Assembly: GCF_022009635.1 (NCBI RefSeq)
Contig: NZ_CP091716.1
Span: forward strand, 2,433,001-2,497,000
Direction of reading: 5' to 3'
Source of the DNA: Variovorax paradoxus
GTDB taxonomy: Bacteria > Pseudomonadota > Gammaproteobacteria > Burkholderiales > Burkholderiaceae_C
Length of the DNA stretch: 64,000 nucleotides
The notes beneath the pieces are model-generated. The model had not been told where the DNA came from and ran no database searches. It saw only the letters and a program-made list of their open reading frames with translations. Shown here piece by piece: positions 4,501 through 51,390 of the stretch (positions are counted from its first letter, which is position 1; each line of letters starts with the position of its first letter). The translations under genes were made by a program, and so were the position numbers.

Positions 4501-4636
4501 GCACGTCCGAGAGGTCGGGTAGCGCATCCAGTGGCGTGCGCAAGACCGAATACACGCCCCAGGCGCTGAGCATTGCCGTGGCCAGCAGCACGAGGAAGCG
4601 ATTGGCGATGGACCACCGGATGAGCTTGGCGATCAT
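1472..4636 (-). CDS. cusA: Heavy-metal RND efflux pump, inner-membrane subunit CusA/SilA type
   Basis: A proton-driven RND transporter of 1054 residues, the normal family length, that exports periplasmic or cytosolic Cu(I)/Ag(I) through CusB and an outer-membrane channel. The N-terminus ([20 protein letters not shown]) is the first membrane helix, followed by the usual [11 protein letters not shown] segment. The helix-4 motif [19 protein letters not shown] (residues about 395-413) is the form seen in monovalent-metal HME pumps rather than CzcA-type zinc pumps, and it includes the proton-relay Asp. Large periplasmic loops after helices 1 and 7 are intact. It overlaps cusB by four bases (ATGA), so the two are translationally coupled. 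Confidence 0.95.
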
Positions 4637-6336
4637 GGCTTGCTTCCCGGCGCTGCGGCCTTGGGGGTCGCGGCGGCACTTGCCGCGGGAGCCGTCGCCA
4701 TGGGCGTCACCCGGGTGAGCTGCGGCAGGTCATCCGCGTCGATGAAGAACTCGAAGCTTGCGCGGTCGCCGGGTTTCAGATTGCCTGGTGTGCCGCCGGG
4801 CGGCAGCTTGAACTCCATCGTCATGGCGCCCCACTTGATCGTGGGAATCGGCCCGTGCGAGAAGGTCATCGCGTCCTTGGTGATGCTTTCCACCTTGCCT
4901 TCGCCCACGTGTCTTGGAGCCCCTGCAGCCGGCGTGGCAGAAGCGGCCGTCGCCGCCGTAGGCGCCGCTGTCCCGGGAGCGGCGTTCAGGCGCGCCTCGA
5001 CACCCTTGAGGCTGGCCTCCGAGTCGATCAGGAACTGCGAGGACACCACGACACGCTGGCCGGCCTGCAACCCGCGCTTGATCTCGGTCTGGCCGCCGGT
5101 TTCCAGGCCGATCTCGACATCGACCGGCCGGAACCGGCCGTTGTCCTCCGCCAGCATGACAACCGCGCGCTTGCCCGTCTGGATGACGGCTTCGGTCGGG
5201 ATCAGCAGCGTCTTGTCGGCACGCATGTCCGTGAACTGCATCGACACGAACATGCCGGGCACCAGCCTGCCGGTCGGATTCGCCAGCTCCAGGCGAGCCT
5301 TCAGGGTGCGCGTCGCCGGATTCACATCGGGAAGAATGGCTTGCACCTTGCCCTCGAAGGTCTCGCCGGGCGCGGCCGGCGTTCTGGCCTGCACCCTCGC
5401 GCCCAGACGCACCAGCGCCGATTGGCTTTCAGGCACTTCGGCATTGGCCCAGACGCTGGCCAGGCCGTTGATGCGAAACAGCGTGGTGCCGGCGCTCACC
5501 GTCATGCCTTCGCGCGCGGCCAGCTCCGTGACGACACCACCGATGGGCGCGACCAGCGTGATGCGCGGCTGCGTGCGGCCGCTGCGAGCGACGAGTTCGA
5601 TCTGCCCATCGTTCATGCCGACCTGGCGCATGCGTTGGCGTGCGCCGTCGATCAGCGAGGCCAGGTCGGTGCCGCGCATGCGCTGCACCGACAGGAACTC
5701 CTCCTGCGCCGCAATCCATTCCGGGACATAGAGCTCGGCCAGAGGCTGGCCTTTCTTCACCTGGTCGAGCGTGGCGCGCACGTTCAGGCGCTCGACATAC
5801 CCGGTCGCCCGGGCCTGCACGATGACTTGGTCCCGCTCATTGAAGGCGATGCTGCCGACCGTGGTCACTTGCGGCGACACGGTGCCCTCGGACACCACAG
5901 CGGTTCGCACGCCCAGGTTCTGCTGCACGCGCGCACTCACCGTCACGCTGTTCTGGTCGCCGTCGCCACCCGCGTAGACGGGCGACATCATCATGTCCAT
6001 GAAGGGCGATTTGGCCGGCTTGTCGAACCTGTTTCCGGGCACCATGGGGTCGTGGTAATAGAGGATCTTCTTGCCGTTGTTCGGGTCGGTGTCACCGGCC
6101 TTGAGGCCCGCTGCGATGTGGCGCCGTGTTGCGTCTTCGCCGGTTTCGTTGGGAGAGGCTGCAGGCGCAGCTGTTGTGCTCGCTGACGGCGTGGCCATCG
6201 ACGACGTGCCCCCAGAGGTGGCGGACGATGATCCCAGGCTCCTGCCGCGCTGCACCCCGAAGGTGTAGGCACCGACGGCTGCTGCCGCGAGGACCGCTGC
6301 CGCGATCAGTCCAAGAACGAGAGGTCTTGTTTTCAT
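4633..6336 (-). CDS. cusB: Efflux adaptor CusB with N-terminal metal-binding motif and C-terminal CusF domain
   Basis: The periplasmic adaptor of the Cus pump, about 567 residues. The ATG at 6336 is chosen because it overlaps the cusC stop (ATGA) and starts a membrane anchor ([20 protein letters not shown]); the frame open upstream is noise. After a Ser/Thr-rich linker comes a heavy-metal-binding segment (YYHDPMVPG, about residue 88). The lipoyl/barrel adaptor region follows, with [13 protein letters not shown] and typical hairpin sequence. Residues about 490-560 form a CusF-like domain ([26 protein letters not shown]). A separate CusF is common in E. coli-type systems; here it is fused, giving the pump its own chaperone. 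Confidence 0.93.
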
Positions 6337-7688
6337 TTCTGTGATTCCTTGGTCTCGCCCGCGGCCGCGGACGGGCCGGTATCGAGCACTGAATGGTTGG
6401 CGGGGATCAGGAATTCGAGCTGCGCCCAGAGCGCGGCGGTCTCCATCTCGAGGCGAAGGCGTTCCAGGCGCGTGTCGACTTCCATGCGTCGTGTCTCGAG
6501 TGCGGCGCTCAAAGTGCCCGCACCGCCGCGGTAGGCCGCCAGCACCGCCTGCGTGCGTTCGGCGGCGAGCGGGATGAGTGAGCTGTCGTACAGGGCGAGC
6601 CGCTTGCGGTTGCTCTGCCACTGCTGCAACCATGAAAGCGCCTCGGCGGCACTCTCTCGCGTCGCTTCCTCGCGCTGGGCCTGCAACTGCTCGACCGTCG
6701 CCAGTTTGGCCGCGAGTTCCCGATCCTGGCGATTCTTCTGGTCTAACTGCAGCGGGATCGACAGGTTCAGCGACACCATGTTCGAGTAGGCCGGCCCCCG
6801 CTGGCTGTACATAAGCTCGACACTCCAGTCGGAGCGCTTGTTGCTTTGCGCGACGTCGGCTTCCGCACGCGCCACCGCTTCCTGTCGCGCCATCAGCGCG
6901 ATCTGCGGGTGCTCACCGATCTGGGCCTCCAGATTGCGGGCGTCCAGGCGCACGGAGCCCAGTTCCGGTAGCGCCATCGAGGGTGGAGGCGTACCCGGCC
7001 CGACCCAGCGCGCCAGACGCGTCTGGGCCGTAGCGATCTGGCGCTCCTGCGCAAGGATGCGGTCGTCCAGTTGCGCCAACGCAGAGCGCGCTGTGAACAC
7101 ATCGGCCTGTGTGCCGCGGCCACCGCGGTAGGCGGCGTCGGCGCCCTCGATCTGCAGGGTCAGCTCGGCACGTTGGGTTTGCAGCAGGTCGCGCATCTGT
7201 CCCTGGTAATAGCGATCAAGCCAGGCGATCGCGGTGTCGCGCCGCAGGTTGGCCAAGGCGACAGTACGGCCCGCTTCGGCGACCTCGGCTTCCCGGTCAA
7301 AGCGCGCCGCGCGGGCCTGGCGCTTGTCGGAGCGGGTGAATTCCTGCATCACGCCTATCGAGCGCATCGTCATGAAGTCGCGTGTGAGGCTGAAGCGGTC
7401 GCTCCCATTGACGGGTAGATTGCTGATGCCGGCCTTGAGCACGGGGTCGGGCAGTTGTCCTGCGGCCACGGCCATGGCGCGCGCGGCGCCGGCGGCCGCG
7501 TCCTGCGCGACGAGCTGCCGCGAGCGCTCCTCGGCGAACCGCAGTGCCGCATCGAGAGAAAGCGTCTGCTGTGCATGAGCGCTCAGGCCGAGGGTGCCGG
7601 CGCACAGCGCCAACACCACAGCCCAAAGACGAACGGGGCGGCGGGCTGATCGCACGATCGGTGCAGCCGCAAAAAGATTGGGGAACAT
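6333..7688 (-). CDS. cusC: TolC-family outer-membrane channel CusC
   Basis: The outer-membrane factor of the Cus tripartite pump, about 451 residues. The ATG at 7688 is preceded by AGGAG six bases upstream; the longer open frame has no such site. An N-terminal hydrophobic segment ends in SAHAQQ, so it is a Sec-exported protein without a lipobox. The rest shows two repeats of long amphipathic helices rich in Ala, Gln and Arg (for example DAALRFAEERSRQLVAQDA), as in OEP/TolC domains. It is the first gene of cusCBA, with ATGA overlaps at each junction. A dyad lies just upstream of its ribosome site. Confidence 0.9.
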   Translation of the reverse strand: MFPNLFAAAPIVRSARRPVRLWAVVLALCAGTLGLSAHAQQTLSLDAALRFAEERSRQLVAQDAAAGAARAMAVAAGQLPDPVLKAGISNLPVNGSDRFSLTRDFMTMRSIGVMQEFTRSDKRQARAARFDREAEVAEAGRTVALANLRRDTAIAWLDRYYQGQMRDLLQTQRAELTLQIEGADAAYRGGRGTQADVFTARSALAQLDDRILAQERQIATAQTRLARWVGPGTPPPSMALPELGSVRLDARNLEAQIGEHPQIALMARQEAVARAEADVAQSNKRSDWSVELMYSQRGPAYSNMVSLNLSIPLQLDQKNRQDRELAAKLATVEQLQAQREEATRESAAEALSWLQQWQSNRKRLALYDSSLIPLAAERTQAVLAAYRGGAGTLSAALETRRMEVDTRLERLRLEMETAALWAQLEFLIPANHSVLDTGPSAAAGETKESQK

Positions 7689-7702
7689 GGAATCTCCTGA
7701 CG

Positions 7703-7718
7703 AACCTGCGAGTAGGTT
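7703..7718. promoter_or_regulatory. Short dyad in the cusC leader
   Basis: AACCT-GCGAGT-AGGTT is a 5-6-5 inverted repeat lying just upstream of the cusC Shine-Dalgarno. It has the same geometry as the ATTAC-N6-GTAAT sites elsewhere in the island but a different half-site. It could be an operator or an mRNA hairpin; the arms are short and chance is possible. Confidence 0.25.
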
Positions 7719-7825
7719 GTCGGGCCGCTCCGGTGCGCCGAGCACAGCTCGACGAACACGGCAAGGCACGACCGACGCGCCGTACCGGCCCACAACGGGC
7801 CGTCGGCGCAAAGTCGGTCAGGCGA

Positions 7826-8272
7826 TCAAGTTCGGGAGACGCAGTGCAGGATGGCGTGAGGCGGCGAGGCCGCAACCAGTGCACTCAGGGAGGTGGCCGA
7901 AGGGCGCGCAGGAGGCACCGTCTCAGGCACCCATGGGGTCAAGGGATAGATCGCCGACAGCAACACCGGCGGAACCGTCAGTGTGGATGCATGGTCGCTT
8001 TGCTGCCCGTATTTGCAGTGCTCGGCGCACAGGTTGCCGGAAGCCGTGTCAGTCGCGCCCACCATGTCCGAACAGGGCGATCCTTGCATAGCCGAGTCAC
8101 GAGAGTCGTCTGTTACAGAGACAGCGTCTTGCGCCATCGACATATCGGTGGACAAGCCACCCGCCAGACCCGCGGAGAGCGCGGGGCAGGCGTAAGCGGC
8201 GATCGCCAGCTGCGAGAACAGCAGCAAGCCGATCAGGCCCCGGGCCACCATCTGCACGAGTCCGCGCCTCAT
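7826..8272 (-). CDS. Small secreted Cys/His-containing protein upstream of cusC
   Basis: A protein of about 148 residues. The ATG at 8272 is chosen for the AAAGGTG site before it and because it starts a signal sequence (RGLIGLLLFSQLAIAAYA). The mature part has Cys in ACPALS, GSPCSDM and the compact motif NLCAEHCKYGQQSDH, a likely metal or disulfide site, then a Pro-rich hydrophobic tail. Small proteins with a similar C-x2-H-C arrangement occur beside metal-efflux operons in related bacteria (general knowledge, unnamed family; possibly related to DUF2946). It precedes cusC on the same strand by about 137 bases, so co-regulation is likely. Confidence 0.6.
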   Translation of the reverse strand: MRRGLVQMVARGLIGLLLFSQLAIAAYACPALSAGLAGGLSTDMSMAQDAVSVTDDSRDSAMQGSPCSDMVGATDTASGNLCAEHCKYGQQSDHASTLTVPPVLLSAIYPLTPWVPETVPPARPSATSLSALVAASPPHAILHCVSRT

Positions 8273-8535
8273 CGCTGCACCTTTGGCAACGCCGACACGG
8301 CCGCACCGCCAACGCATGATGCGTTGGCGGTCCGTGTGAGGAAGGTTGCGGAAATGAGCATTGGAGAACGCGTGAAAGGCTGCTGATGGAGTCCGTGCTT
8401 GGAAAGTTGTTCCGCGAATTCTAGGCCTGTTGCTCAGGAAACGGGGCAAGCCGCGGCGAGGCGTGCGGCTTGCGGCGGACGACGCCGTCGTGATCGGCGC
8501 TCAATTGCTTGGCGGTCGCCCGACGGCCAGGCCGC

Positions 8536-8985
8536 TCAGCGGCGCATGGTCGCGGGTGCGTCCGGCAGTTGGCCCTGCTGGGTGAGGCGCTCCACGGGCG
8601 TGCCGAACTCCGGCTGCTCACCGCGCAGGCGTGCGTACGCAGCTGCGGCTTGCCGATAGGCAGGGCGAGTCGTATCCGCACCCGCTTCGCCGTTGGTGGC
8701 GGCGGCCAGGCCCGAACGCATCCAGGCCAGCGTGTCCGCCTGGACCGTCGCGCGGGTGTTGGAGGACACGCTCACGACGGCACGCGGATTGCCCTCGGGG
8801 TAGCCTTGGTCCACAGAGCTCTGCAGCCAGCGCTGCGTGTCCTCGGCCACAGCGGCACGGCTGGTGCTCGACGTCAGCGGCGCCGGGCGAGGATCGCCTT
8901 CGGCATAGTTGCCGGCCAGTGCGGGGCCGGCGATCGCGCCGAGCAGCGCGGCGAGGGTCAGGGAGGTCTTGAGAGAAGTCTTCAT
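8536..8985 (-). CDS. Secreted DUF4148-like protein with two internal repeats
   Basis: A 149-residue protein with a signal peptide (about 1-24, cleaved after ALA). The mature part contains two copies of a roughly 32-residue unit: GNYAEGDPRPAP...SRAAVAEDTQRWLQSS and QGYPEGNPRAVV...TRATVQADTLAWMRSG. A third, weaker helix follows (AYARLRGEQPEFG). The R-A-x-V-x-A-x-x-x-x-W pattern resembles DUF4148 proteins that are abundant and uncharacterised in Burkholderiales. It is divergent from the gene at 9249, and an ATTAC-N6-GTCAT dyad lies between them, so it is probably CopR-regulated. Confidence 0.7.
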   Translation of the reverse strand: MKTSLKTSLTLAALLGAIAGPALAGNYAEGDPRPAPLTSSTSRAAVAEDTQRWLQSSVDQGYPEGNPRAVVSVSSNTRATVQADTLAWMRSGLAAATNGEAGADTTRPAYRQAAAAYARLRGEQPEFGTPVERLTQQGQLPDAPATMRR

Positions 8986-9101
8986 GTTCGGTCCTTTGGC
9001 AGTGGAAGGGTTGGCATCTGCGGAAATGAACAGCGCTGTGGCTTGTCTTTTTCCGATGCATCGACTTTAGGCCGCGGGTCCGAGGGTTTCCGCACGCGCA
9101 G

Positions 9102-9117
9102 ATTACAGCTTTGTCAT
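9102..9117. promoter_or_regulatory. Putative CopR operator (ATTAC-N6-GTCAT)
   Basis: ATTACAGCTTTGTCAT is a 5-6-5 dyad with one mismatch, in the divergent intergenic region between 8985 and 9249. Identical geometry and nearly identical half-sites occur at 13553-13568 and 19849-19864, the last beside copR. That makes it a candidate binding site for the island's CopR response regulator. Confidence 0.55.
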
Positions 9118-9248
9118 CTGCATGGCCGTGCTTGGCCGATCTCACGACCGAATCAGCTTTTATCTGACAGACGGCACTCGCCAGTGGTCAATCATTCGAG
9201 CGATAAATCGGGTCGGCCCCTCGACCAGATCACCAAGGCCGCTTCTGC

Positions 9249-41698: not shown

Positions 41699-42742
41699 TC
41701 ATATGGCCGACGACGTAAACACCAGGTGGTGACTCGCGGCATCGCGTCGCCAACTGGTCGGGTTGCCATTGCCGAGCACGCCGACGGACGCTTTGTCGTA
41801 GCAATCGTCGCCGAAGCTGAAAGCGGCACCTGAATACACGGGATCGCCTTTGAGCAGGATGCACAGGTTCTTGTATTGATCCTGCTTCCCCTTCTTGAAA
41901 CCGCCAGCCTTGAACAAGCGCCAGAAGCCGTCGCTGGCATAGCGGATGGCCACCGACGGATTCATCATGGTGGGGTCGATGTCAGGCGCCGGAGCTGGGT
42001 TGCTAACGGTGTAGTCGCTGAACAGCACCTTTGCGTATGCAGGTTTGGCAACCAACGTCTTCCAAGCTTTCCATTCAACGCGCTCGATGTCGTGCAGCCC
42101 TTGCTTGCGGCCCACGAGGTTCAGCGGGAATGAGCCACCGGCGAGCGTGGTGCTGCTGCATCCGGCCGCAAGCGCCTCGTCAAGATATTGCTGCGCGGCA
42201 GCGGCGCACGCTGGGGGGTTGACGCCCACGATCGAAAACTGATCCACGAGCACATGAAGCCGCGATTTGGCGATGCCCGCGCCGACCACGACTTTCACGA
42301 AATCCTTGACCTGGTCGGAGGTCACGCCGTGTGTCTGGATCCGGAGCACGAAGACCTCGAAGGCCTTGGCGAGGTCCGGCAGATCTGCCGGACGCGCAAC
42401 CATCGCCTCCGTGATGACCGGGATGATTTGACGACCCGTCAGCGTCGACAGCCGCTTGCAGATCGAGGTGAGCACCTGGGCCTGTTTTGCGTAGGTGGGC
42501 ATGAAGTATCGAATGTCGATCGCGATGGGCGTGCCCTCCGGAATCGACTTGACCATTTGCCCCCCGATCTTGGTGATGTAAGGCACCAGCGTTTCGGCGA
42601 GCGTCCCCTTCTTGGGGTCGATGGGGAGGATTTCGATCAGCGGGACTATTCCATCCCACTGGGCGCCCGTGAGCTTGCTCAAGGCGATTCGTTCCCCCTG
42701 CTTCCATTTCAGGATGGGCAGGTATTTCCATATCGCAGGCAT
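41699..42742 (-). CDS. Beta-family protein (T4 beta protein-like, sce7725-like)
   Basis: About 347 residues; the ATG at 42742 follows GGAGGGACC. The start WKYLPILKWKQGERIALSKL and the following IVPLIEILP are the hallmark of the Beta_protein family (PF14350, named after a T4 product). An alternating beta/alpha layout follows (TPIAIDIRYF, QIIPVITEAM, LHVLVDQFSIVG) consistent with a barrel. Beta-family genes are often beside sce7726 genes, as here. Biochemical activity is unknown; a phage-related or defence role is inferred. Confidence 0.75.
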   Translation of the reverse strand: MPAIWKYLPILKWKQGERIALSKLTGAQWDGIVPLIEILPIDPKKGTLAETLVPYITKIGGQMVKSIPEGTPIAIDIRYFMPTYAKQAQVLTSICKRLSTLTGRQIIPVITEAMVARPADLPDLAKAFEVFVLRIQTHGVTSDQVKDFVKVVVGAGIAKSRLHVLVDQFSIVGVNPPACAAAAQQYLDEALAAGCSSTTLAGGSFPLNLVGRKQGLHDIERVEWKAWKTLVAKPAYAKVLFSDYTVSNPAPAPDIDPTMMNPSVAIRYASDGFWRLFKAGGFKKGKQDQYKNLCILLKGDPVYSGAAFSFGDDCYDKASVGVLGNGNPTSWRRDAASHHLVFTSSAI

Positions 42743-42879
42743 TGGTCCCTCCAGACTCGTTGTGTCTAGAGGGTACGTCACGATTACTTACACTGGATTA
42801 CGGGATTTCCCAGGCCGCACCATGCTGCGGTTTCAGTGCGCGGGCGTGTGCCGCATATTGCCGGGCACGCCGCCACGGC

Positions 42880-43524
42880 TTATGCCAAGCAGTTCAGCGC
42901 GAAGGCAACGGCATCCGAGGCGCCATCTGACGCGAGCGAAGTCGACGGCAAGAAGCCCAACTGTCGTTTGCGGAGCAAACTGGTGACGGCTTCGCGCAGC
43001 GTGCGCATGCTCAGTTCCCGCGCGAGCATTTCTTGCAATTCGAACTTCGTGGCCCGCTTGGGAGGCAGCTCGCCCCTGTGCGACGCCAGCGTTTCGATGC
43101 ATTCGGCGCGCCACAACAGCATGGCCAGACTCAGGCGGTCTTGCACCGGATTGGCCTTCGGCTTGCGCAGCACGCGCAGCGCGAGCGTGCCATCCGTACG
43201 GCGCACGGCTGACCAGACTCCCCACCACGCGGGCATCAAGGCCAGACTGGCCTCGGAATAGACCGGCCCCGTGACCAGCGTCACCCGGTCGAAGACGCGG
43301 TTGTAGGCATGAATCTGGTTGTGCAGACGCGAGAACGAGTCGAGGTCGCTCTTCAGCTCGAAAGCGCTGAGCTGTGTGTCCACCAACGCCAGGTCCACTC
43401 GTGCCTCCCCACCTTCGATGCCGAGCTCTTCGAAGAGCCTTCCACCCGACTTGGCGGCGTCTGCGAGCAGTCGCGAACGCACTGCTTGGCGCAACTCGCG
43501 TTCGGTGATGGAGGGGGTGCTCAT
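42880..43524 (-). CDS. sce7726-family protein, predicted nuclease fold
   Basis: About 214 residues from ATG 43524; a second ATG at 43533 lies inside the operator palindrome. The region ARVDLALVDTQLSAFELKSDLDSFSRL has the Asp...E-x-K arrangement of PD-(D/E)XK nucleases and is typical of the sce7726 family, as are RVTLVTGPVYS and PAWWGVW. No ribosome site precedes the start; the mRNA may be leaderless (see the palindrome at 43529). It precedes the beta-family gene by 137 bases. Confidence 0.8.
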   Translation of the reverse strand: MSTPSITERELRQAVRSRLLADAAKSGGRLFEELGIEGGEARVDLALVDTQLSAFELKSDLDSFSRLHNQIHAYNRVFDRVTLVTGPVYSEASLALMPAWWGVWSAVRRTDGTLALRVLRKPKANPVQDRLSLAMLLWRAECIETLASHRGELPPKRATKFELQEMLARELSMRTLREAVTSLLRKRQLGFLPSTSLASDGASDAVAFALNCLA

Positions 43525-43528
43525 TTTA

Positions 43529-43544
43529 TGCATTATATAATGCA
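43529..43544. promoter_or_regulatory. 16-bp perfect palindrome carrying two opposed -10 boxes
   Basis: TGCATTATATAATGCA is a perfect palindrome containing TATAAT on each strand (43536-43541 plus, 43537-43532 minus). The two divergent start codons lie about 7 bases beyond each -10, so both transcripts would begin at or next to their ATG. The HTH protein encoded at 43548 is the obvious candidate repressor. Confidence 0.65.
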
Positions 43545-43547
43545 GTT

Positions 43548-43931
43548 ATGCCAAGAACAGCAAAGCCCACCACCTTGGAAGCTGTCCGGGCCCGAGAAGC
43601 GCTCCGGCTGTACCTGAAGCGGCAGAGTATCTCTGTGAATGCGCTTGCTCAAGCTGTAGGTGTAGGCCAGCCCACAGTGAGCCGTTTTTTGAGTGGGCGG
43701 ACGAAGTCCGTGACGGCAGCCATTCGGCCGCTGTTGGATTATGCAAATATTGATTTCGAAAATGGCATAACCGAGATAGGCGGCGTGCTCGATAATCCCC
43801 GTGTGCGAGGGGCGCTCGAGCGCGTCTGGGACGGGCGGCCGGAGACGGCCGACTTGCTCGCCCGATTGATCGAGGCGTTAGGACCCGTCCTGAAAAGTGC
43901 ACCATTGACGGCAACCAGGAACATGCAGTGA
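43548..43931 (+). CDS. HTH (Cro/C1-type) regulator of divergent module
   Basis: A 127-residue protein with a helix-turn-helix near residues 20-55 (QSISVNALAQAVGVGQPTVSRFLSGRTKSV) and a short helical tail. It has no ribosome site and starts about 7 bases after a -10 box, suggesting a leaderless mRNA. Its stop overlaps the next gene by four bases (GTGA). It probably represses both divergent transcripts by binding the palindrome at 43529-43544. Confidence 0.82.
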   Translation: MPRTAKPTTLEAVRAREALRLYLKRQSISVNALAQAVGVGQPTVSRFLSGRTKSVTAAIRPLLDYANIDFENGITEIGGVLDNPRVRGALERVWDGRPETADLLARLIEALGPVLKSAPLTATRNMQ

Positions 43932-44950
43932 CCCATCCGGATGCCAAGACCATCTACCAAGCCGTGTCGGCGATCGGGCTGACGCGCGCACAAGTGCGTC
44001 GGCTCCTGCCTGACTGGTGGGATCCCGCACTGGAGAAGGAACGCGGTGGCGCGGCGGAACTGGCAATGCACGTCAGCAGGCGGCTGAGCGTCGAGCTTCA
44101 GCCGCTGCTGAAGGGGCAGATCGTTCCCAAGGGTGCCATGGCCAGCGTTGCCTACAAGCACTCGGTCAACATCGAGGCGTCATCACTCTCGGCCGCAAGC
44201 TTCATTGCGTCATCTCTTGCGCAGGCGGTGCTGGCCGCCTTGCCGATCCCATACGTTCCGCTGCCTCAAGATCCCGGCGAGTTGCGCGCGCTGGCAATGC
44301 GTGATCGCGCTGGCCAGTTCGGCTTCAGTGCCCTTCTGGACCTTTGCTGGGCCCACGGAATCCCGGTCATTCCCTTGCCACACCTGCCTGTGGGCGTGCG
44401 CAAGATGGATGGGGCCGCGCTGCAGTTGGGCGGACGTCCGGCCATCGTGATCGCGAAGAAGAAGTCGTCACGGGCTTGGCTGAGTTTCATCCTGGCGCAT
44501 GAAATCGGACACATCGCACTGGGGCATCTGCGCCCCGGATCCTCCATCATCGATGTATCGCTTCAGGAGACGAGCACGTATGCAACCGAGTTGTCGACAG
44601 ACGGCCAGGAAGCGGAGGCGGACAGCTTCGCGCTCCAGACGCTGGGAGGCGACGAGGTCACGGCGCGAGTGAGCAAATGGCCGGTTCTGGCTGCGCCTGT
44701 GGATATTGCGGTACTGGCCCGCGGCGCTGCCGGCGCTGTGGGTATCGAGGCTGGACACTTCGTTCTGAGATATGCCTTTCTTACGAAGCGTTGGCCCACG
44801 GCGCTGACAGCGCTGAACTTCCTCAGCGAAGACCTGGATCCAGAGGGGGCGCTGCTGCAGAAGTTGCGCTCGCACCTGGATCTCAGCCGCGTCGCCGACG
44901 ACCTGCAAGACCTCGTGTCGCAGATCACCGGCTGGGATGGAGCGAACTGA
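43928..44950 (+). CDS. ImmA/IrrE-family zinc metallopeptidase
   Basis: A 340-residue protein starting at GTG, coupled to the HTH gene. The metal site HEIGH is at residues 191-195 (SFILAHEIGHIALGHL), and the third ligand is probably in QEAEADSFALQTL about 35 residues later. ImmA/IrrE peptidases typically cleave a partner HTH repressor after a signal, which fits the coupled gene upstream. The N-terminal ~130 residues (YQAVSAIGLTRAQVRRLLPDWW) may be a DNA- or partner-binding part. Confidence 0.87.
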   Translation: MTHPDAKTIYQAVSAIGLTRAQVRRLLPDWWDPALEKERGGAAELAMHVSRRLSVELQPLLKGQIVPKGAMASVAYKHSVNIEASSLSAASFIASSLAQAVLAALPIPYVPLPQDPGELRALAMRDRAGQFGFSALLDLCWAHGIPVIPLPHLPVGVRKMDGAALQLGGRPAIVIAKKKSSRAWLSFILAHEIGHIALGHLRPGSSIIDVSLQETSTYATELSTDGQEAEADSFALQTLGGDEVTARVSKWPVLAAPVDIAVLARGAAGAVGIEAGHFVLRYAFLTKRWPTALTALNFLSEDLDPEGALLQKLRSHLDLSRVADDLQDLVSQITGWDGAN

Positions 44951-44953
44951 GGC

Positions 44954-45580
44954 GTGCGTCTGCTGATCGACGTCGACGCGCTTTGCAAGCTGGCGCATTG
45001 GGGGCTTCTCGAGGAGATCCCATCGTTGATGGGTATCCCGCTGCAAGAGTGCACCACGCTCGCCTCGTCGAAATACCGGGCCATCAAGGCAAAGAGCAAG
45101 CTCGACGGGCGGGTGTTTCACGCAGTCGAAGCGGCCGACCGTGTGCTCGAAGCTATCGCCTTGATGCAGGCGCCGATGGAGCCCGCGAGCCAAAGCCTTG
45201 GGGATTTCGAAAACGTGTTGGGCATCGACGCTGGCGAGGCGGTGCTGCTCGCATCGCTCGTGGCAGCGCCGGATACACGGCTGCTGACGGGAGACAAGCG
45301 GGCGCTGCGCGCGCTCGCAGCGCTACCGCCTGAAGCACGTGAACCGTTTCTTGGCCGAGTAATCTGCGTGGAACGAATCATTGAGGCAGGGCTGAACCAG
45401 TGGGGGTTGGACGTGCTTCGATCCAAGGTGTGTCCTTGGAAGAAGATCGACGTTGCCGTGAACATCATCATGGGGAGTCGTTGCGACGCAGGAGAGGCCT
45501 CGGTCCGGGAGGCGCTCGCCTCTTACATCGGCGAGCTGACGTCGCTGTGCGATCCCTCGCTCATCTGCGAGAAGCTCTGA
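44954..45580 (+). CDS. PIN-like predicted ribonuclease
   Basis: A 208-residue protein starting at GTG, three bases after the peptidase gene. It opens LLIDVDALCKLA and later has IDAGEAVLLASLV and TRLLTGDKRALRAL, the spaced acidic residues of PIN-type nucleases. PIN domains cut RNA in many toxin-antitoxin and defence systems. Here it would be the effector of an HTH-peptidase-PIN operon, which is inferred from the arrangement. Confidence 0.72.
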   Translation: MRLLIDVDALCKLAHWGLLEEIPSLMGIPLQECTTLASSKYRAIKAKSKLDGRVFHAVEAADRVLEAIALMQAPMEPASQSLGDFENVLGIDAGEAVLLASLVAAPDTRLLTGDKRALRALAALPPEAREPFLGRVICVERIIEAGLNQWGLDVLRSKVCPWKKIDVAVNIIMGSRCDAGEASVREALASYIGELTSLCDPSLICEKL

Positions 45581-46021: not shown

Positions 46022-46725
46022 GGAAGCATTGTGCCGCGCAGAACAAAGCGGTCATCCACGTCGATGCGTTGGCCGGACATTTCAAAGGATCTGCGGCGTT
46101 CGGTCAAAGCGTGTGAGGAGTTCCATGAGCTGCTTAAGTGGCGGAAGGGTTCACGTCGATGACCAGCCCAGGATCGAACGCCTTGTTCTCGATCCTTCCG
46201 CTCCAGTTCACATAGCCGCGCGGATTGCATACGACCCGGCAAGAACGGACTCGATAGTCGGACTGCTGATGCGTGTGGCCATGCAGCCAGAGCACGGGCA
46301 CATCAAAGAAAGTCTCCGGAAGCTCGGTGACGAAGGCGCCTGAGGCCCAGTCGTCGGCGTAGCGCTGCGCCAGCGAACCTCGATGAGGCGCGTGGTGCGT
46401 TACGACCACTGTCGGTCCGGCGAACGGTTCCGCAAGCCTATCGCGCAGCCAGGCGCGCTGCACCTGATGAACCCGAAGCGTGTCGGTCGCTTGAAGCTTT
46501 CGTCCCTGCTTGTCGCGCCATGTATCGGGTTCCGCCGACTCGTCGACAGTGCGGATCAGCGCATAGTCGTTCAGCAGGTTGGTCGCCATTTTCATGGCAC
46601 GCCCGACATCGCTGATCGGTCCTTCCGGTGTCTCGATGGCGAGCGCGAAGTCGGTCCACAGCGTCGCGCCGAGGAACCGCACGCCGTCGAGCACCAGCTC
46701 GTCACCGTCGAGCAGATGAACATTG

Positions 46726-48176
46726 GGCGTATTCAACCGGTCGTCGCAACACCGGGTTGTCGAACGGATTTTAGGTACTGGTTCAAAGTCTCGGCCGGTG
46801 TCTTCCAGCCCAGCGTTTTACGCGGCCTGTTGTTCAAGGTCCGAGCCACGGCTTGAATCTCCTGCTCGCTCCAGCGAGACAGATCTGTTCCTTTTGGGAA
46901 GTACTGGCGCAGCAGACCGTTCGTGTTCTCGTTCGTGCCGCGCTGCCATGGGCTGCGAGGATCGGCGAAGAAGACACGCACTCCGGACTCGATACTGAAC
47001 CGCGCATGGTCGGAGAGTTCCTTGCCACGATCCCATGTCAATGATTGCCATAGCTCGGCGGGCAGCGTGGCCACGGTTCTTTTGAGTGCATTGGCCATCG
47101 TGACGGCTCCGTAGCCCGAGAGTGCAGGACCGTTCTTCGTCCGGGGCGTCAGTCGATAGCCTGCTTCGCGAGGCAAGTGCACGAGCATAGTGAAGCGGCT
47201 TGATCGCTCCACCAGCGTCCCGATGGCGGACCTGTCCAGGCCGATGATCAAGTCTCCCTCCCAGTGACCCGGCACGGCACGATCTTCTGCCTCTGCAGGT
47301 CGGCTGGAGATCATCACCTCCTCGCTGACATGAGCCCACGCTGTAGCCTGAGCCCTGGCCCGTGGCACGCGCAACGCACGCCCCATACGCAGATAGCTCA
47401 CCAGCTCGCGCTTGAGAGCACCTCGCCCCTGAATGTAGAGGGCTTGGTAGATGGCTTCGTGGGAAATGCGCATGGACTGATCATCCGGGAAGTCGACCTG
47501 CAGCCGGTTGGCAATCTGCTCGGGCGACCAGCCATTGACCCACTTGCGATCACCACGATGAGGCTTGTTGCGGCCGATGAACGTCGCTTGCCGAGGCCCG
47601 GTGACCTCGCGTCCTTGAGCATCGTGGATCTTGCCCTCCAGGCGGTCTTGAACATATTGACGCAGACGGGGGTTCATCAACAGTTTGGCGGGCTTGGGCC
47701 TTCTGGCCACCAGCTCGGACTTCCACTGCGCAACCGACGCTCGATACTCGAGCTTGCCCCTGCGAGTCGCAGCATTGCGGGTCAGCTCCCGTGAGACCGT
47801 CGAGGGACTTCGCCCGATACGGCGAGCGATCTCCCTCACCCCAACCTCTTGGGCCCGCAGAAGAGCAATCTCTTCTCGCTCGGAGAATGACAGATACCTT
47901 CCCGATGTGGGATGCGACATGAACAGTGGCATACCGCCACGATGACGGAACCAACGCGTGCCCACCGGCGTTGACACGCCAACGGCTTCGGCAGCCTTCT
48001 CACTCGTGATTCCGGTGGCAATCTGTTCCCAGAATTGCCGCTCCACCTCTCGCCGAAGCGAAGGAGCACCGGGTGAGCGCATTGCGCCTCGCCCCGTTAA
48101 CTTCTGCATCCACCCCGCGGGTCGTCCCATAAACACCTCCATGAATGAAGTGTTGCGACGACCGGTTGAATACGCC
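46726..48176 (-). mobile_element. IS30-family insertion sequence, 1451 bp
   Basis: Perfect 27-bp inverted ends (starting GGCGTATTCAACCGGTCG at 46726, complement ending at 48176) flanked by the 3-bp duplication TTG (46723-46725 and 48177-48179, CAA on the minus strand). The short duplication and the transposase type fit IS30. The length is above that of classic IS30 (about 1.2 kb) because the transposase has an N-terminal extension. Perfect ends and an intact transposase suggest recent transposition. Confidence 0.92.
46733..48130 (-). CDS. IS30-family transposase
   Basis: A 465-residue transposase from ATG 48130, which follows GGAGGTG. An N-terminal region with an extra helical part (SLRREVERQFWEQIATGITSEKAAEAVG) precedes the IS30 HTH (LSFSEREEIALLRAQEVGVREIARRIGRSPSTVSREL). 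Catalytic motifs are HWEGDLIIG, LTWDRGKEL and the Glu of RGTNENTNGLLRQYFPKG. The stop codon lies in the right inverted repeat. The frame is open upstream into the disrupted phosphoesterase, giving a potential 562-residue chimera. Confidence 0.93.
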   Translation of the reverse strand: MGRPAGWMQKLTGRGAMRSPGAPSLRREVERQFWEQIATGITSEKAAEAVGVSTPVGTRWFRHRGGMPLFMSHPTSGRYLSFSEREEIALLRAQEVGVREIARRIGRSPSTVSRELTRNAATRRGKLEYRASVAQWKSELVARRPKPAKLLMNPRLRQYVQDRLEGKIHDAQGREVTGPRQATFIGRNKPHRGDRKWVNGWSPEQIANRLQVDFPDDQSMRISHEAIYQALYIQGRGALKRELVSYLRMGRALRVPRARAQATAWAHVSEEVMISSRPAEAEDRAVPGHWEGDLIIGLDRSAIGTLVERSSRFTMLVHLPREAGYRLTPRTKNGPALSGYGAVTMANALKRTVATLPAELWQSLTWDRGKELSDHARFSIESGVRVFFADPRSPWQRGTNENTNGLLRQYFPKGTDLSRWSEQEIQAVARTLNNRPRKTLGWKTPAETLNQYLKSVRQPGVATTG

Positions 48177-48417
48177 TTGGTTCCTTCGGCTTCGCGGCGC
48201 GCTTCTGCCAGTGTTGTATCCAGCCGTCCATCGTAGTACTCGTGGTTGCCAAGCAGGTAGACCACGGGCTTGCCGCGAAAGCGATCCGCCGCCCACTGGA
48301 CGGCGCGCTTAGCCGGCGAATGAATGTCGCCGGCGAGGATGACGACATCGAATTCAAGATCGGGCACCGGCTCGAACGGAGCGAACTCGAGGTGGAGGTC
48401 GGAAAGAATCAGCACTT

Positions 48418-48870
48418 TCATCGGGACACCCCTTCAAAGCGGGTGCGAAGCTCGGCACTGGCCTTGTCGTCGAAGCCGGTGAACGAGCCGCACACCACCA
48501 GATGGTCCTTGAAGTGGTCGAACTGCCAGTAGGCGTCATCGAGCGCAACCCAGGGCTCGTCGACCGCATCGTGAAGCTGGAGCCAATCGAGGATTTCTTT
48601 TTCACGATTCCTGTACGGCGGCTGAAGGCCAAAGCCCGAAGGAGGGATGGCTCCAACGATGCAGGTCCGGATGTCGCTGGAGAACGGCTTCAGCAGCGTC
48701 TTGTTGAGCAGGTGCTCACGCCAGGATGAACTGATCACGATCTTCACGAGCGGGAACTCGCGCAGCAACGCCTCCAGGCGCGGCAGGAAGCAGAACTTGG
48801 CACCACCGTTGAGGATGTAGTCTTCCCCCTCCGGATGCAGCACGCCGTCGAAGTCGATGAACAGGATCAC
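48418..48870 (-). CDS. HAD-type phosphatase (RNA-repair-associated HAD family)
   Basis: About 150 residues. The GTG at 48870 is chosen for the GGAGG site upstream and because the domain starts at once: ILFIDFDGVLHPEG (motif I, two Asp), then VKIVISSSWREHL (motif II Ser) and WVALDDAYWQF (acidic motif). This compact cap-less form fits the HAD family linked to Swiss-Army-Knife RNA repair proteins (PF18143). It is encoded between two phosphoesterases and overlaps the downstream one (ATGA). It may remove or process phosphate ends; no substrate is shown by sequence. Confidence 0.8.
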   Translation of the reverse strand: MILFIDFDGVLHPEGEDYILNGGAKFCFLPRLEALLREFPLVKIVISSSWREHLLNKTLLKPFSSDIRTCIVGAIPPSGFGLQPPYRNREKEILDWLQLHDAVDEPWVALDDAYWQFDHFKDHLVVCGSFTGFDDKASAELRTRFEGVSR

Positions 48871-48961
48871 TCCGGGCCTCCGAATCCATTCCCATCCAGC
48901 GGCCGCGCCAGGTGCGAGCCCATGCCAACGCCGAATGCGCGGAACGGCGCCGCCGCGGTCC

Positions 48962-50002
48962 TCATACGACACCGCCGTGTTGAATCGCGTTGAGCATCGA
49001 TCGCACCTTTTCTGAGCCGCCCCCGGCGGCGAACGCTGCTGGCGTTCGGCCATCAAGCAATTCATGTGGTTTGTTCAGCCAGGCCTGGGCTGCTGAGCCG
49101 AACACCTGGGCAGCAAGAGCCTGCAATTCTTGTGAAAGGCGGGCCGTCTCCGGCCGCACCAAGGTCATGATCTCGATAACCAATCCAGGGTCGAAGCTCT
49201 TGTTCTCGAATTCCCTCCGCCGGTTCAAGTGGTAGCCGCGCGGATTGCAGACCACGCGGCACTTACCAACTTGATAGTCGAAGCTCTCGTGGATATGGCC
49301 ATGCACCCAGAGCGTGGGCACATCGAAGAATGAGGATGGCAGTTCGCTCACAAAAGCACCGGACAACCAGTTGGCCTGGTAGTGCGGCGCGAGCGACCCT
49401 CGGTGTGGTGCGTGATGGGTCACCACCACCGTCGGTCCACCGAAGGGCTCAGCCAGCCTGTCCGCTAGCCAAGCGCGGTCGCGTTGGTGTAGCGCTAACG
49501 TGTCTTTGGGCGTTAGCCGGCGCTTACTCGGCTTGACGTGCTGCGTGGTCTGATTGTCCGCCTCTGGTGTCTCAGCCCACCGGATCGATGAGTAGTCGTT
49601 GAGTTGGAGCTTGGCCACCTTCATGGCGCGCTCGATGTCAACGACGGGGCCGGGCTTGGCCTGGATGGGCAGTTCAAAATCGGTCCACAACGTGCACCCC
49701 AGAAACCGGACGCCGTCGATCGCGGTTTCGCCGGGAGCCAGAAGGTGAATGTTGCACGCGTTCGCGGTTAGCGCCATTTCCTTCTGCGTGGTTTGAAGCA
49801 CTCCCCCGAAAAATTCGTGATTTCCCGGCACGAAGACGATCGGAACAGTCTCCCCGAAGTTGTCTGGTCGTCGAGCCCAACGCATGGCCTTGGAAGCAGG
49901 CACGGAGATGTCGCCGGCAAGGATGACGACGTCATAGTCGACCTTCGGAACGTTGAAAGTGCCGAACTCGATGTGCAGATCGGAATAGACAAGCAGCTTC
50001 AT
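48962..50002 (-). CDS. Metallophosphoesterase with C-terminal ParS/MbcA-like (DUF2384) tail
   Basis: A 346-residue protein. Residues 1-275 are a calcineurin-like phosphoesterase with all metal motifs: YSDLHIEF, VVILAGDIS, VPGNHEFFGG, VVVTHHAPHRG and LWVHGHIHESFDY. It is a paralog of the split gene downstream. Residues about 285-346 are extra: LAAQVFGSAAQAWLNKPHELL, GRTPAAF, then KVRSMLNAIQHG. This matches the toxin-binding domain of Xre/MbcA/ParS antitoxins (DUF2384), normally found on HTH antitoxins of RES toxins. I know of no described phosphoesterase fusion of this kind. It overlaps the AAA+ gene (ATGA). Confidence 0.85.
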   Translation of the reverse strand: MKLLVYSDLHIEFGTFNVPKVDYDVVILAGDISVPASKAMRWARRPDNFGETVPIVFVPGNHEFFGGVLQTTQKEMALTANACNIHLLAPGETAIDGVRFLGCTLWTDFELPIQAKPGPVVDIERAMKVAKLQLNDYSSIRWAETPEADNQTTQHVKPSKRRLTPKDTLALHQRDRAWLADRLAEPFGGPTVVVTHHAPHRGSLAPHYQANWLSGAFVSELPSSFFDVPTLWVHGHIHESFDYQVGKCRVVCNPRGYHLNRRREFENKSFDPGLVIEIMTLVRPETARLSQELQALAAQVFGSAAQAWLNKPHELLDGRTPAAFAAGGGSEKVRSMLNAIQHGGVV

Positions 50003-51390
50003 GATGGATCCCTGACAAGAACAAAGGCGAAGGAGTCGCCCGGGTCGTCATTTCGTGGCGGAGACTTCCCTGCGGACGGCATGACCGTCGGCAAGGCTTC
50101 GTCCAGATCGGCGTCCTCGATGTGCCAGCGTCCGGCCAGGGCGGCGGCGCCGAGGACGCGTTCAGCCGTCATGCGGATCTGGCGCGGCGTGAGCCAGGCC
50201 AGCCGACAGACCTGCAGGTTCGTCAGCGGCCGGAAGCGTGATCGGATGCCTTTGGCGGGAACCATGCGCTTCAACGTCGCTGCGTAGATACTTTGGGCCA
50301 GAACCAAACGGCCGTCGATGTCTGGTGGCACGATGGTGAATTCGACAAAACGCGAACGAACCGGCGCGGGAATGCGTCGTGGGTCGTTCGCCGTGGCGAT
50401 GTACCAGACATAGGAGGCATCGAACTCGAACTGGACGCTCAGATCCTTGATCCGTGATGCAGTGACGGGCTCGAGCAACGTGAGCAACGAATCGATTGGC
50501 TGGTAACCGCTCCCGCCCCTCTTTCCCTTGTCGAGTTCGTCAAGCAGGATGATCGGATTGGCGTGTTCACCCAGGACGATCAGTTCGAACAGGGCGCCGA
50601 CGGACGTGTTGGCCCAGTGCCGGTCAGAGCCACGCAGGCCCGAGCTCGTCTCGGCGTTGTCAAAGGCCTCGCGTTGGACCACCGTGCCAAGGCTTTCGGA
50701 CAGGCGCAGGGCAAAGTGCGACTTCCCGACACCAGGGTCACCGAGCAGCAGGATGGGTGGAGGATGCAACGGTGCACCGGCGAGTTCGGCCAGTGCCAGG
50801 CGTTGGGCGATGAACTGGGCCACAGGCGCAAAGTTGGGCATCTCCTGAATGAGTGCAGTCAGTTCGTCGCGCCAGCCGTGAGGTGATTTGATGCGGCGCC
50901 AGGAACCTCTTTCCATCGCTTTAGCCAGGAGCGCCCGATCGCGCTTGACGAGCTGTCTGTCGGGCGAACTCGGCGTGGACTCCAGGTTCCTGAAATGCGC
51001 AAGTGCAGCCTTCCAGTCGAAGACGGGAACGGTGTGCTTGCGTTTCGGCGGCTGTTTGGTCGGCACCGAGGCGTCGAGTTCGGCGGACTTGCTTACATGC
51101 CGGACGATAGGCGGCGGAGTGGGTGCCTTGGCGCTGGCTGTCATGGACTCGAGAGCGCGCTGAGCCTGGAGATCGCGGATACGTTGCTCCCGCTCTTGCC
51201 CCTCCCGGATTCGGCGCTCCAATTCCTCCCGCTCGATGGCGTGCAGGACGGCTTCTGGCACCGCCAGTTTGAAGTTGCGCGGATCGGCAGCGGACTGATG
51301 ATGCTGCCGGGTATAGAAACGATAACCGGCAGGCAGAGAGGTCGGCGGCGGATTAGCGGGATGCTCTTCGTGGGGCGTTGCACTGGACAT
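49999..51390 (-). CDS. Lon-like AAA+ ATPase without protease domain
   Basis: About 463 residues from ATG 51390, which follows GGAG. A Pro/charged N-terminus with a coiled coil (ELERRIREGQEREQRIRDLQ, about residues 55-75) leads to an AAA+ domain. Walker A is LLGDPGVGKSH (about 213-223), Walker B PIILLDELDKG (about 278), sensor 1 YIATAND and an arginine-finger region RIPAPVRSRFVEF. The C-terminal helical lid contains the sensor-2 Arg (TPRQIRMTAERV). It resembles Lon/ClpX-type remodelling ATPases but lacks any peptidase. It is the first gene of the phosphoesterase-HAD operon, so it probably recruits or loads the nuclease-like partners. Confidence 0.85.
   Translation of the reverse strand: MSSATPHEEHPANPPPTSLPAGYRFYTRQHHQSAADPRNFKLAVPEAVLHAIEREELERRIREGQEREQRIRDLQAQRALESMTASAKAPTPPPIVRHVSKSAELDASVPTKQPPKRKHTVPVFDWKAALAHFRNLESTPSSPDRQLVKRDRALLAKAMERGSWRRIKSPHGWRDELTALIQEMPNFAPVAQFIAQRLALAELAGAPLHPPPILLLGDPGVGKSHFALRLSESLGTVVQREAFDNAETSSGLRGSDRHWANTSVGALFELIVLGEHANPIILLDELDKGKRGGSGYQPIDSLLTLLEPVTASRIKDLSVQFEFDASYVWYIATANDPRRIPAPVRSRFVEFTIVPPDIDGRLVLAQSIYAATLKRMVPAKGIRSRFRPLTNLQVCRLAWLTPRQIRMTAERVLGAAALAGRWHIEDADLDEALPTVMPSAGKSPPRNDDPGDSFAFVLVRDPS

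Follow-up and report, generated by a model that had tools for sequence, protein, structure and literature searches.

A candidate phosphate-processing operon family of metallophosphoesterases, small HAD phosphatases, DUF2384 domains and a Lon-type AAA+ ATPase in Variovorax and related genera

The stretch of DNA analysed here (the window; 64,000 nucleotides of Variovorax paradoxus contig NZ_CP091716.1, positions 2,433,001 to 2,497,000) contains a minus-strand operon that encodes, in the order of transcription, an AAA+ ATPase, a metallophosphoesterase (MPE1) with a C-terminal DUF2384 domain, a small HAD phosphatase and a second metallophosphoesterase (MPE2) that is split by an insertion sequence of the IS30 family. 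The parts of the operon family are PptH-like MPE1 and MPE2 paralogs, a further phosphoesterase (MPE3), small HADs and DUF2384 domains, joined at many loci by a Lon-type AAA+ ATPase and by a small zinc-ribbon-like protein that we label ARF. We tentatively place the window operon in a family of accessory operons that recombine among Variovorax and related genera and whose enzymes may form a relay that reverses phosphate damage or modification.

A preliminary description of this DNA, made from the sequence alone, recognized four linked genes on the minus strand, and gene calls together with Pfam and NCBIfam scans confirmed them. It counted three ATGA overlaps in addition to a 91-bp gap; four genes have only three junctions, of which two overlap (AAA/MPE1 at 50002-49999, HAD/MPE2 at 48421-48418) and the third, between MPE1 and HAD, is the 91-bp gap (48871-48961), and a three-overlap operon was therefore rejected. 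That the genes stand together beyond chance follows from the occurrence of the same gene families together in other genera and from ratios of nonsynonymous to synonymous substitution rates (dN/dS) below 0.3.

The AAA gene (49999-51390, minus strand) encodes 463 residues from an ATG at 51390, a start backed by a relative of the same length. The protein has a long N-terminal extension and a Lon-type module that matches Pfam AAA (E 3e-10) and, over profile positions 355-490, which comprise the Lon AAA module alone, TIGR00763 (E 2.8e-17, far below the full-length cut-off). Neither the Lon N-terminal domain nor the Ser-Lys peptidase domain is among its Pfam and NCBIfam matches, which end after the AAA module, and Lon structures lead its structure matches. 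The earlier reading as a Lon-like ATPase without a protease is thus supported. The positions assigned to Walker A and B, the sensor and the Arg finger are invariant in five AAA sequences, including that of the window.

MPE1 (48962-50002, minus strand) combines a calcineurin-like metallophosphoesterase (approximately residues 1-280; Pfam Metallophos, E 3.2e-10) with the DUF2384 domain (Xre_MbcA_ParS_C, PF09722, E 1.2e-8; 35.3 bits against a cut-off of 24.5) at residues 297-343 (48974-49114), both matches being above cut-off. The preliminary assignment as a metallophosphoesterase with DUF2384 holds, the latter being a domain fused to the MPE1 C-terminus. The metal-site positions D8, H10, D31, N61, H196, H234 and H236 are invariant in 42 sequences. 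The best fold match of the structure model (predicted local distance difference test, pLDDT, 86.6) is by a clear margin PptH (PDB 6unc). The HAD gene (48418-48870, minus strand; 150 residues) was taken to begin with a GTG at 48870, upstream of which lies GGAGG; the start of a longer open reading frame (215 residues, to 49065), which overlaps MPE1 out of frame, was rejected. Its match to HAD_SAK_2 of the Swiss-Army-Knife (SAK) family (PF18143, E 9.2e-26) agrees with the earlier view of a compact HAD of the type linked to RNA repair. Residues D6, D8, S47, D111 and D112 are invariant in 8 sequences; across 41 sequences each is either invariant or conserved to 90% or more. The model has a pLDDT of 90.5. 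By these alignments, AAA, MPE1 and HAD retain their predicted catalytic residues.

The disruption of the second phosphoesterase, also seen in the preliminary description, is due to the IS30-family element (46730-48172, minus strand; NF033563, E 5.8e-72), which is bounded by perfect 23-bp inverted repeats (46730-46752 and 48150-48172) and separates an N-terminal piece of MPE2 (48173-48421, minus strand; Metallophos, E 9.1e-6) from a C-terminal piece (46134-46729, minus strand; E 2.2e-4). An open reading frame at 46733-48421 fuses the MPE2 N-terminus to the reading frame of the element. Variovorax proteins match the window AAA at 97% identity, and Variovorax sp. ZS18.2.2 (L059) carries the same four genes uninterrupted and without the IS30 element; identities to this sister strain amount to 97% for AAA, 96% for MPE1, and 96% over 71 residues and 93% over 196 residues for the N- and C-terminal pieces of MPE2. 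The dN/dS values against the sister strain (0.05-0.28 for eight genes and the MPE2 C-terminal piece, each below 0.3) indicate purifying selection. The synonymous rate dS climbs along the operon, from 0.05 in AAA through 0.10 in MPE1 and 0.32 in HAD to 0.58 in the MPE2 piece, which is a sign of recombination inside the operon. The left flank of the island is common to both strains, and the similarity ends abruptly on the right (51905 in the window, 8498 in L059), which suggests an insertion or rearrangement boundary.

In the antitoxin partners of RES toxins, DUF2384 is the portion that binds the toxin. A RES partner was rejected, since a search of all 7.95 Mb of the genome with PF08808 gave nothing at E 0.01; the same model matches 2 of 14 control genomes. 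A genome-wide Pfam search, which would miss relatives too distant for the model, revealed only two DUF2384 domains, one in the window MPE1 and one in MPE3 of a paralogous operon (L039). As both copies lie in these operons and a RES toxin is lacking, the antitoxin-type domain here seems to serve the phosphoesterases. Pfam matches no helix-turn-helix (HTH) in the MPE1 protein, only the phosphoesterase and DUF2384. At other loci the domain is fused in-frame to MPE1 or MPE3, forms a small separate gene (71 residues in L123, L130 and L132) or occurs within small proteins adjoining more distant AAA genes. Apart from the sister strain, the window MPE1 core is nearest to stand-alone MPE1 genes (up to 81%), whereas its tail is nearest to MPE3-DUF2384 genes (up to 84%), and the 91-bp gap downstream (minus strand) contains a remnant of MPE3 coding sequence, as revealed by its translation, by blastn against L039, L125 and L129, and by the MPE3 profile (E 1.2e-5). 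The differing affinities of core and tail and the remnant are most simply explained if MPE1 and MPE3 became fused through a deletion or through recombination between them.

To follow the operon through other genomes, genes were called with a simple codon-score caller and families were called again with profiles, partly built from the same loci, on six-frame stop-to-stop reading frames. In the sets searched, four further Variovorax genomes have a close AAA (about 50% identity or more); Variovorax has additional AAA proteins, and the neighbourhood results cover the loci named. MPE genes accompany the close AAA in YR216 (L044), J22R187 (L045) and V. ginsengisoli (L046). No MPE was found beside that of V. 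soli (L043), which lies directly 3' of transposon-type genes (a 783-residue protein, TniB-like and TniQ; 2590-9225 of the locus), a hint that a transposon may carry it. Seven Variovorax loci have a more distant AAA (L047-L053), with MPE genes in two (L049, L053), DUF2384 proteins only in three, two of these with ARF, and none in two. Five loci with an AAA of 33-35% identity (L054-L058, one of them from another family) have no partner genes.

An AAA-less form in Variovorax has the order MPE1, small DUF2384 gene, HAD, MPE3-DUF2384, HAD, MPE2 (L123, L125, L127, L129), with MPE3 constituting a phosphoesterase family separate from the MPE1/MPE2 paralogs. The order is changed in L124 and L130, the form is partly degraded in other loci, and broken copies of cluster genes are found in L132, L133, L136, L140 and L159. 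In a set of 61 Variovorax genomes, MPE1-family matches reach E 1e-70 or better in 22 and HAD matches reach E 1e-15 or better in 14, all 14 being among the 22 (Fisher p 1.4e-8; like the Fisher value below, this is uncorrected for phylogeny and calls for caution because the Variovorax operons are related by descent). All but one of the 30 Variovorax HAD rows adjoin an MPE1- or MPE3-family sequence, the exception being L158.

The same parts recur beyond Variovorax. A family-level AAA search covered 349 genomes, and the top 17 rows outside the query's own (E 3.7e-58 or better) were inspected over about 7 kb on each side where the contig allowed. MPE1, MPE3 or HAD accompanies 11 of these 17 operon-type AAA genes and ARF alone one; of the five without a partner, four lie on 3-5 kb contigs or at a contig end. 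The orders include AAA-ARF-HAD-HAD-MPE3-MPE1-MPE1-MPE1 in L223, taken as Rhodoferax sediminis, AAA-ARF-HAD-MPE1 in L229, AAA-ARF-HAD-MPE1-MPE1 in L275 and L276, and MPE3-MPE1-AAA-ARF-HAD in L271. The 16 rows ranked directly below these (E 8e-56 to 1.4e-51), 13 of them in frames of 330-413 residues, are mostly solo: a partner occurs in one (G095, 524-residue frame), versus 11 of the 17 (Fisher p 5.8e-4), the line between the two types having been drawn by E value after the rows were seen, and 9 of the 16 having about 1.4-1.5 kb of flank. More divergent AAA genes adjoin MPE1 in L216, L219, L220, L221 and L222, and 7 of 18 HAD rows outside the own genome have a partner within 1.5 kb. These recurring clusters in several genera bear out the earlier expectation that the gene families co-occur.

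Farther afield, the HAD profile at E 1e-25 matched its own genome only among 350 genomes of the class; weaker HAD relatives are present in 309 plasmid records and, among the matches listed, those of E. coli and Salmonella are at 32%. With the Rhodoferax AAA as query, no long operon-type AAA outside the family was found at E 1e-45 in 300 genomes of the order, a cut that more divergent AAA genes of the operon, for example the one in G175 (L216), fail to reach. This search returned the own operon AAA and, in 18 other genomes, matches to the AAA module only, in solo-like frames of 328-396 residues whose neighbourhoods stand outside the partner counts. AAA relatives on plasmids of Klebsiella, Raoultella and Acidovorax are surrounded by other genes and have no MPE or HAD within about 8 kb, and MPE genes occur in one of the four plasmid HAD loci examined. 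A plasmid of Variovorax sp. WDL1 (L306) carries MPE1, a gene of the PAPS-reductase family, MPE3-HAD and, further on, a HipA-domain gene; L138 looks similar. A phage link was rejected for AAA, for which no viral contig was found, and for HAD, to which annotated phages gave no match at E 1e-5. Phages often carry MPE1-like genes (148 records at E 1e-5); that of Caulobacter phage CcrColossus (L233; 39% identity) lies inside a large tRNA gene array.

The genes next to the window operon include defence-like ones, as the preliminary description had stated. At 41699-43533 a sce7726-family gene (134 bits, cut-off 70) and a PADLOC PD-Lambda-2_C match (4e-30) stand beside it, followed on the plus strand at 43548-45580 by an HTH gene, an ImmA/IrrE-like protease gene with a weak PD-Lambda-2_B match (7e-7), and a gene for a 208-residue protein that has no Pfam match and was assigned as PIN-like by eye. 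This trio resembles the Xre/COG2856/PIN type of toxin-antitoxin system (PMC2701414). The HTH, PIN-like, ImmA-like, sce7726 and beta-family genes of the window also adjoin the AAA-less operon in L125 and L127. A two-gene module (about 840 and 335 residues; L039 4700-8225, L223 14252-17796) flanks operons in both Variovorax and Rhodoferax; its larger protein has a P-loop-like motif by eye, and the module has no Pfam or PADLOC match. The patchy presence, the broken copies, the plasmid copy and the defence-like neighbours suggest a conflict setting.

In the relay that we propose, an MPE would cut a phosphodiester or cyclic phosphate on a macromolecule and the HAD would remove the phosphomonoester left behind. 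The DUF2384 domains might serve as docks that hold the enzymes together, while an AAA+ ring might open or remodel the target, so that phosphate-based damage or modification inflicted by toxins or phage would be reversed. As to the substrate, RNA ends are our first guess and protein-linked phosphates our second. RNA-end healing is supported by the published contexts of SAK-type HADs, which in PMC7824862 and PMC9503650 are placed in RNA-repair gene neighbourhoods with calcineurin-like enzymes, and by a sirtuin-like gene that overlaps a related HAD in L226. Protein-linked phosphate is plausible because PptH, a protein-phosphodiester hydrolase, is the best fold match of MPE1, and is further supported by the protein phosphatases among the HAD fold matches and by HipA-type kinases in 10 of 107 loci. 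Possible, but held with a little more doubt, is the wider proposal of a new kind of conflict system that has turned DUF2384 into a docking tag for pairs of diesterases and monoesterases which, with an AAA+ ring, undo or inflict phosphate damage on RNA or proteins, the set being reshuffled between strains.

Several observations weigh against the relay, which is built on sequences and models. The sequence similarity of MPE1 to PptH is weak (E 0.018 by hmmsearch, over a single short stretch). Foldseek gave no match below E 0.001 for the HAD model, whose near-tied structural neighbours include sugar, nucleotide and protein phosphatases, so the fold is silent on the substrate. Docking by DUF2384 is itself conjectural. 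Neither an RNA ligase nor a kinase was matched in the operon when ten proteins, neighbours included, were scanned with Pfam and ten with NCBIfam; the search for a ligase did not extend to the rest of the genome. Membership is variable: AAA and HAD are each absent from many clusters, and neither is strictly required. None of 72 viral loci with HAD relatives (26-41%) has the MPE or AAA families within 6 kb; two have weak ARF-family matches. Co-occurrence in conserved contexts, which the preliminary description had set as a test, was found in part. It holds for Variovorax HAD (29/30) and operon-type AAA (11/17), whereas the short AAA are mostly solo (15/16), as is the broad MPE1 family, of which 21 of 29 loci outside the own genome, counted at most once per genome rather than by every matching row, have no partner within 1.5 kb (8 have one). 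Clustering therefore belongs to an accessory branch.

Instead of a repair relay, the operon might encode a toxic effector, an unlikely proposal in which the PptH-like MPEs remove a phosphodiester group that the cell needs, such as 4'-phosphopantetheine on acyl carrier protein, and halt growth during infection, with DUF2384 restraining them, as it does RES toxins, and AAA+ releasing them. The fold match of MPE1 to PptH, the activity of PptH on carrier proteins of other organisms (reported in PMC8557913), the toxin-binding nature of the DUF2384 family and the broken genes of L132, L133, L136, L140 and L159 would fit such a role; arguing against it are the marginal sequence similarity to PptH (E 0.018), the frequency of MPE1 relatives as solo genes, unexpected for a toxin, and the presence of as many as three MPE1-type paralogs in one operon (L223), for which a toxin has no need. 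Less probable still is an antitoxin network, in which HAD and MPE reverse phosphorylation by a HipA-type kinase and similar toxins and the clusters are collections of toxin-antitoxin parts. HipA-like genes occur in 10 of the 107 loci scanned, with a profile built from two of these ten that both contain Pfam HipA_C; an Acidovorax plasmid has the order HTH-HipA-HAD, a HipA-domain gene follows MPE3-HAD by 3 kb on a Variovorax plasmid, a DUF2384 gene adjoins HAD on a Diaphorobacter plasmid, and protein phosphatases are among the nearest folds of HAD. On the other hand, HipA-like genes are lacking in the remaining 97 loci, some of them AAA-only or short, and the ten window genes scanned contain no HipA domain.

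The proposal that this is not one system, but a collection of mobile cassettes that share accessory islands while each functions independently, is given a slightly lower probability again. Order and content do vary, with AAA, HAD and MPE3 coming and going, the dS gradient (0.05 to 0.58) is a sign of recombination between genes, and MPE genes are found in only one of four plasmid HAD loci. Against this proposal stand 4-bp overlaps at many junctions, similar combinations across several genera, the in-frame fusions of MPE1 or MPE3 to DUF2384, and the difference in partners between solo-type (1/16) and operon-type (11/17) AAA rows. Least probable of all is that the operon is an accessory-region duplicate of phosphoesterases that serve housekeeping or the scavenging of nucleotides or phosphate: solo AAA and MPE1 relatives exist in many genomes and nucleotide phosphatases are among the near-tied fold matches of HAD, but the patchy presence in Variovorax (MPE1 in 22, HAD in 14 of 61 genomes), the DUF2384 domain and the island context weigh against it.

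If the enzymes of the proposed relay act together, they would constitute an undescribed multi-enzyme phosphate-processing machine of soil bacteria, DUF2384 would gain a role beyond RES antitoxins, and PptH-like hydrolases and Swiss-Army-Knife HADs would be seen in a natural setting. Whether the enzymes have a common substrate and whether the operon protects against phages or toxins would then be testable questions.

Among known systems, the RES-Xre pairs (MbcT-MbcA, ParT-ParS) have the DUF2384 domain in common with the operon, and a weak match (E 0.018) links it to the Xre antitoxin 6gw6; here, in contrast, no HTH is matched, the genome has no RES and DUF2384 is fused to a phosphoesterase. The AAA+ module aligns with that of Lon protease, but the operon protein has no match to the Lon N-terminal or peptidase domains. 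PptH (Rv2795c) of Mycobacterium tuberculosis has the MPE fold of MPE1, the sequence similarity of the two being marginal (E 0.018); the sections of PMC8557913 on this enzyme mention no DUF2384, HAD or AAA partner. With the RNA-repair neighbourhoods (PMC7824862, PMC9503650) the operon has in common the name of the HAD family and a pairing of terminal-phosphate enzymes, but neither an RNA ligase nor a kinase was found in it, and it has an AAA+ ATPase and several MPE paralogs instead. In PADLOC-DB 2023, AAA has a weak TRIP13 match (2.9e-4), HAD none, and IetA matches part of the AAA module in relatives (up to 6e-8); residues 1-109 of MPE1 partially match PDC-S10 (7.2e-11), presumably, judging by its name, a single-gene candidate. 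The statement of the preliminary description that it knew of no system with this gene set is borne out by the PADLOC, Pfam and NCBIfam models and by the open-access literature in PubMed Central (most subscription journals lying outside it), in which none was found. Since the defining features of the known systems, RES, protease and ligase, are missing, the PADLOC matches are weak or partial and the open-access literature yielded no match, we rate the composition of the operon as new, and assign its function by prediction.

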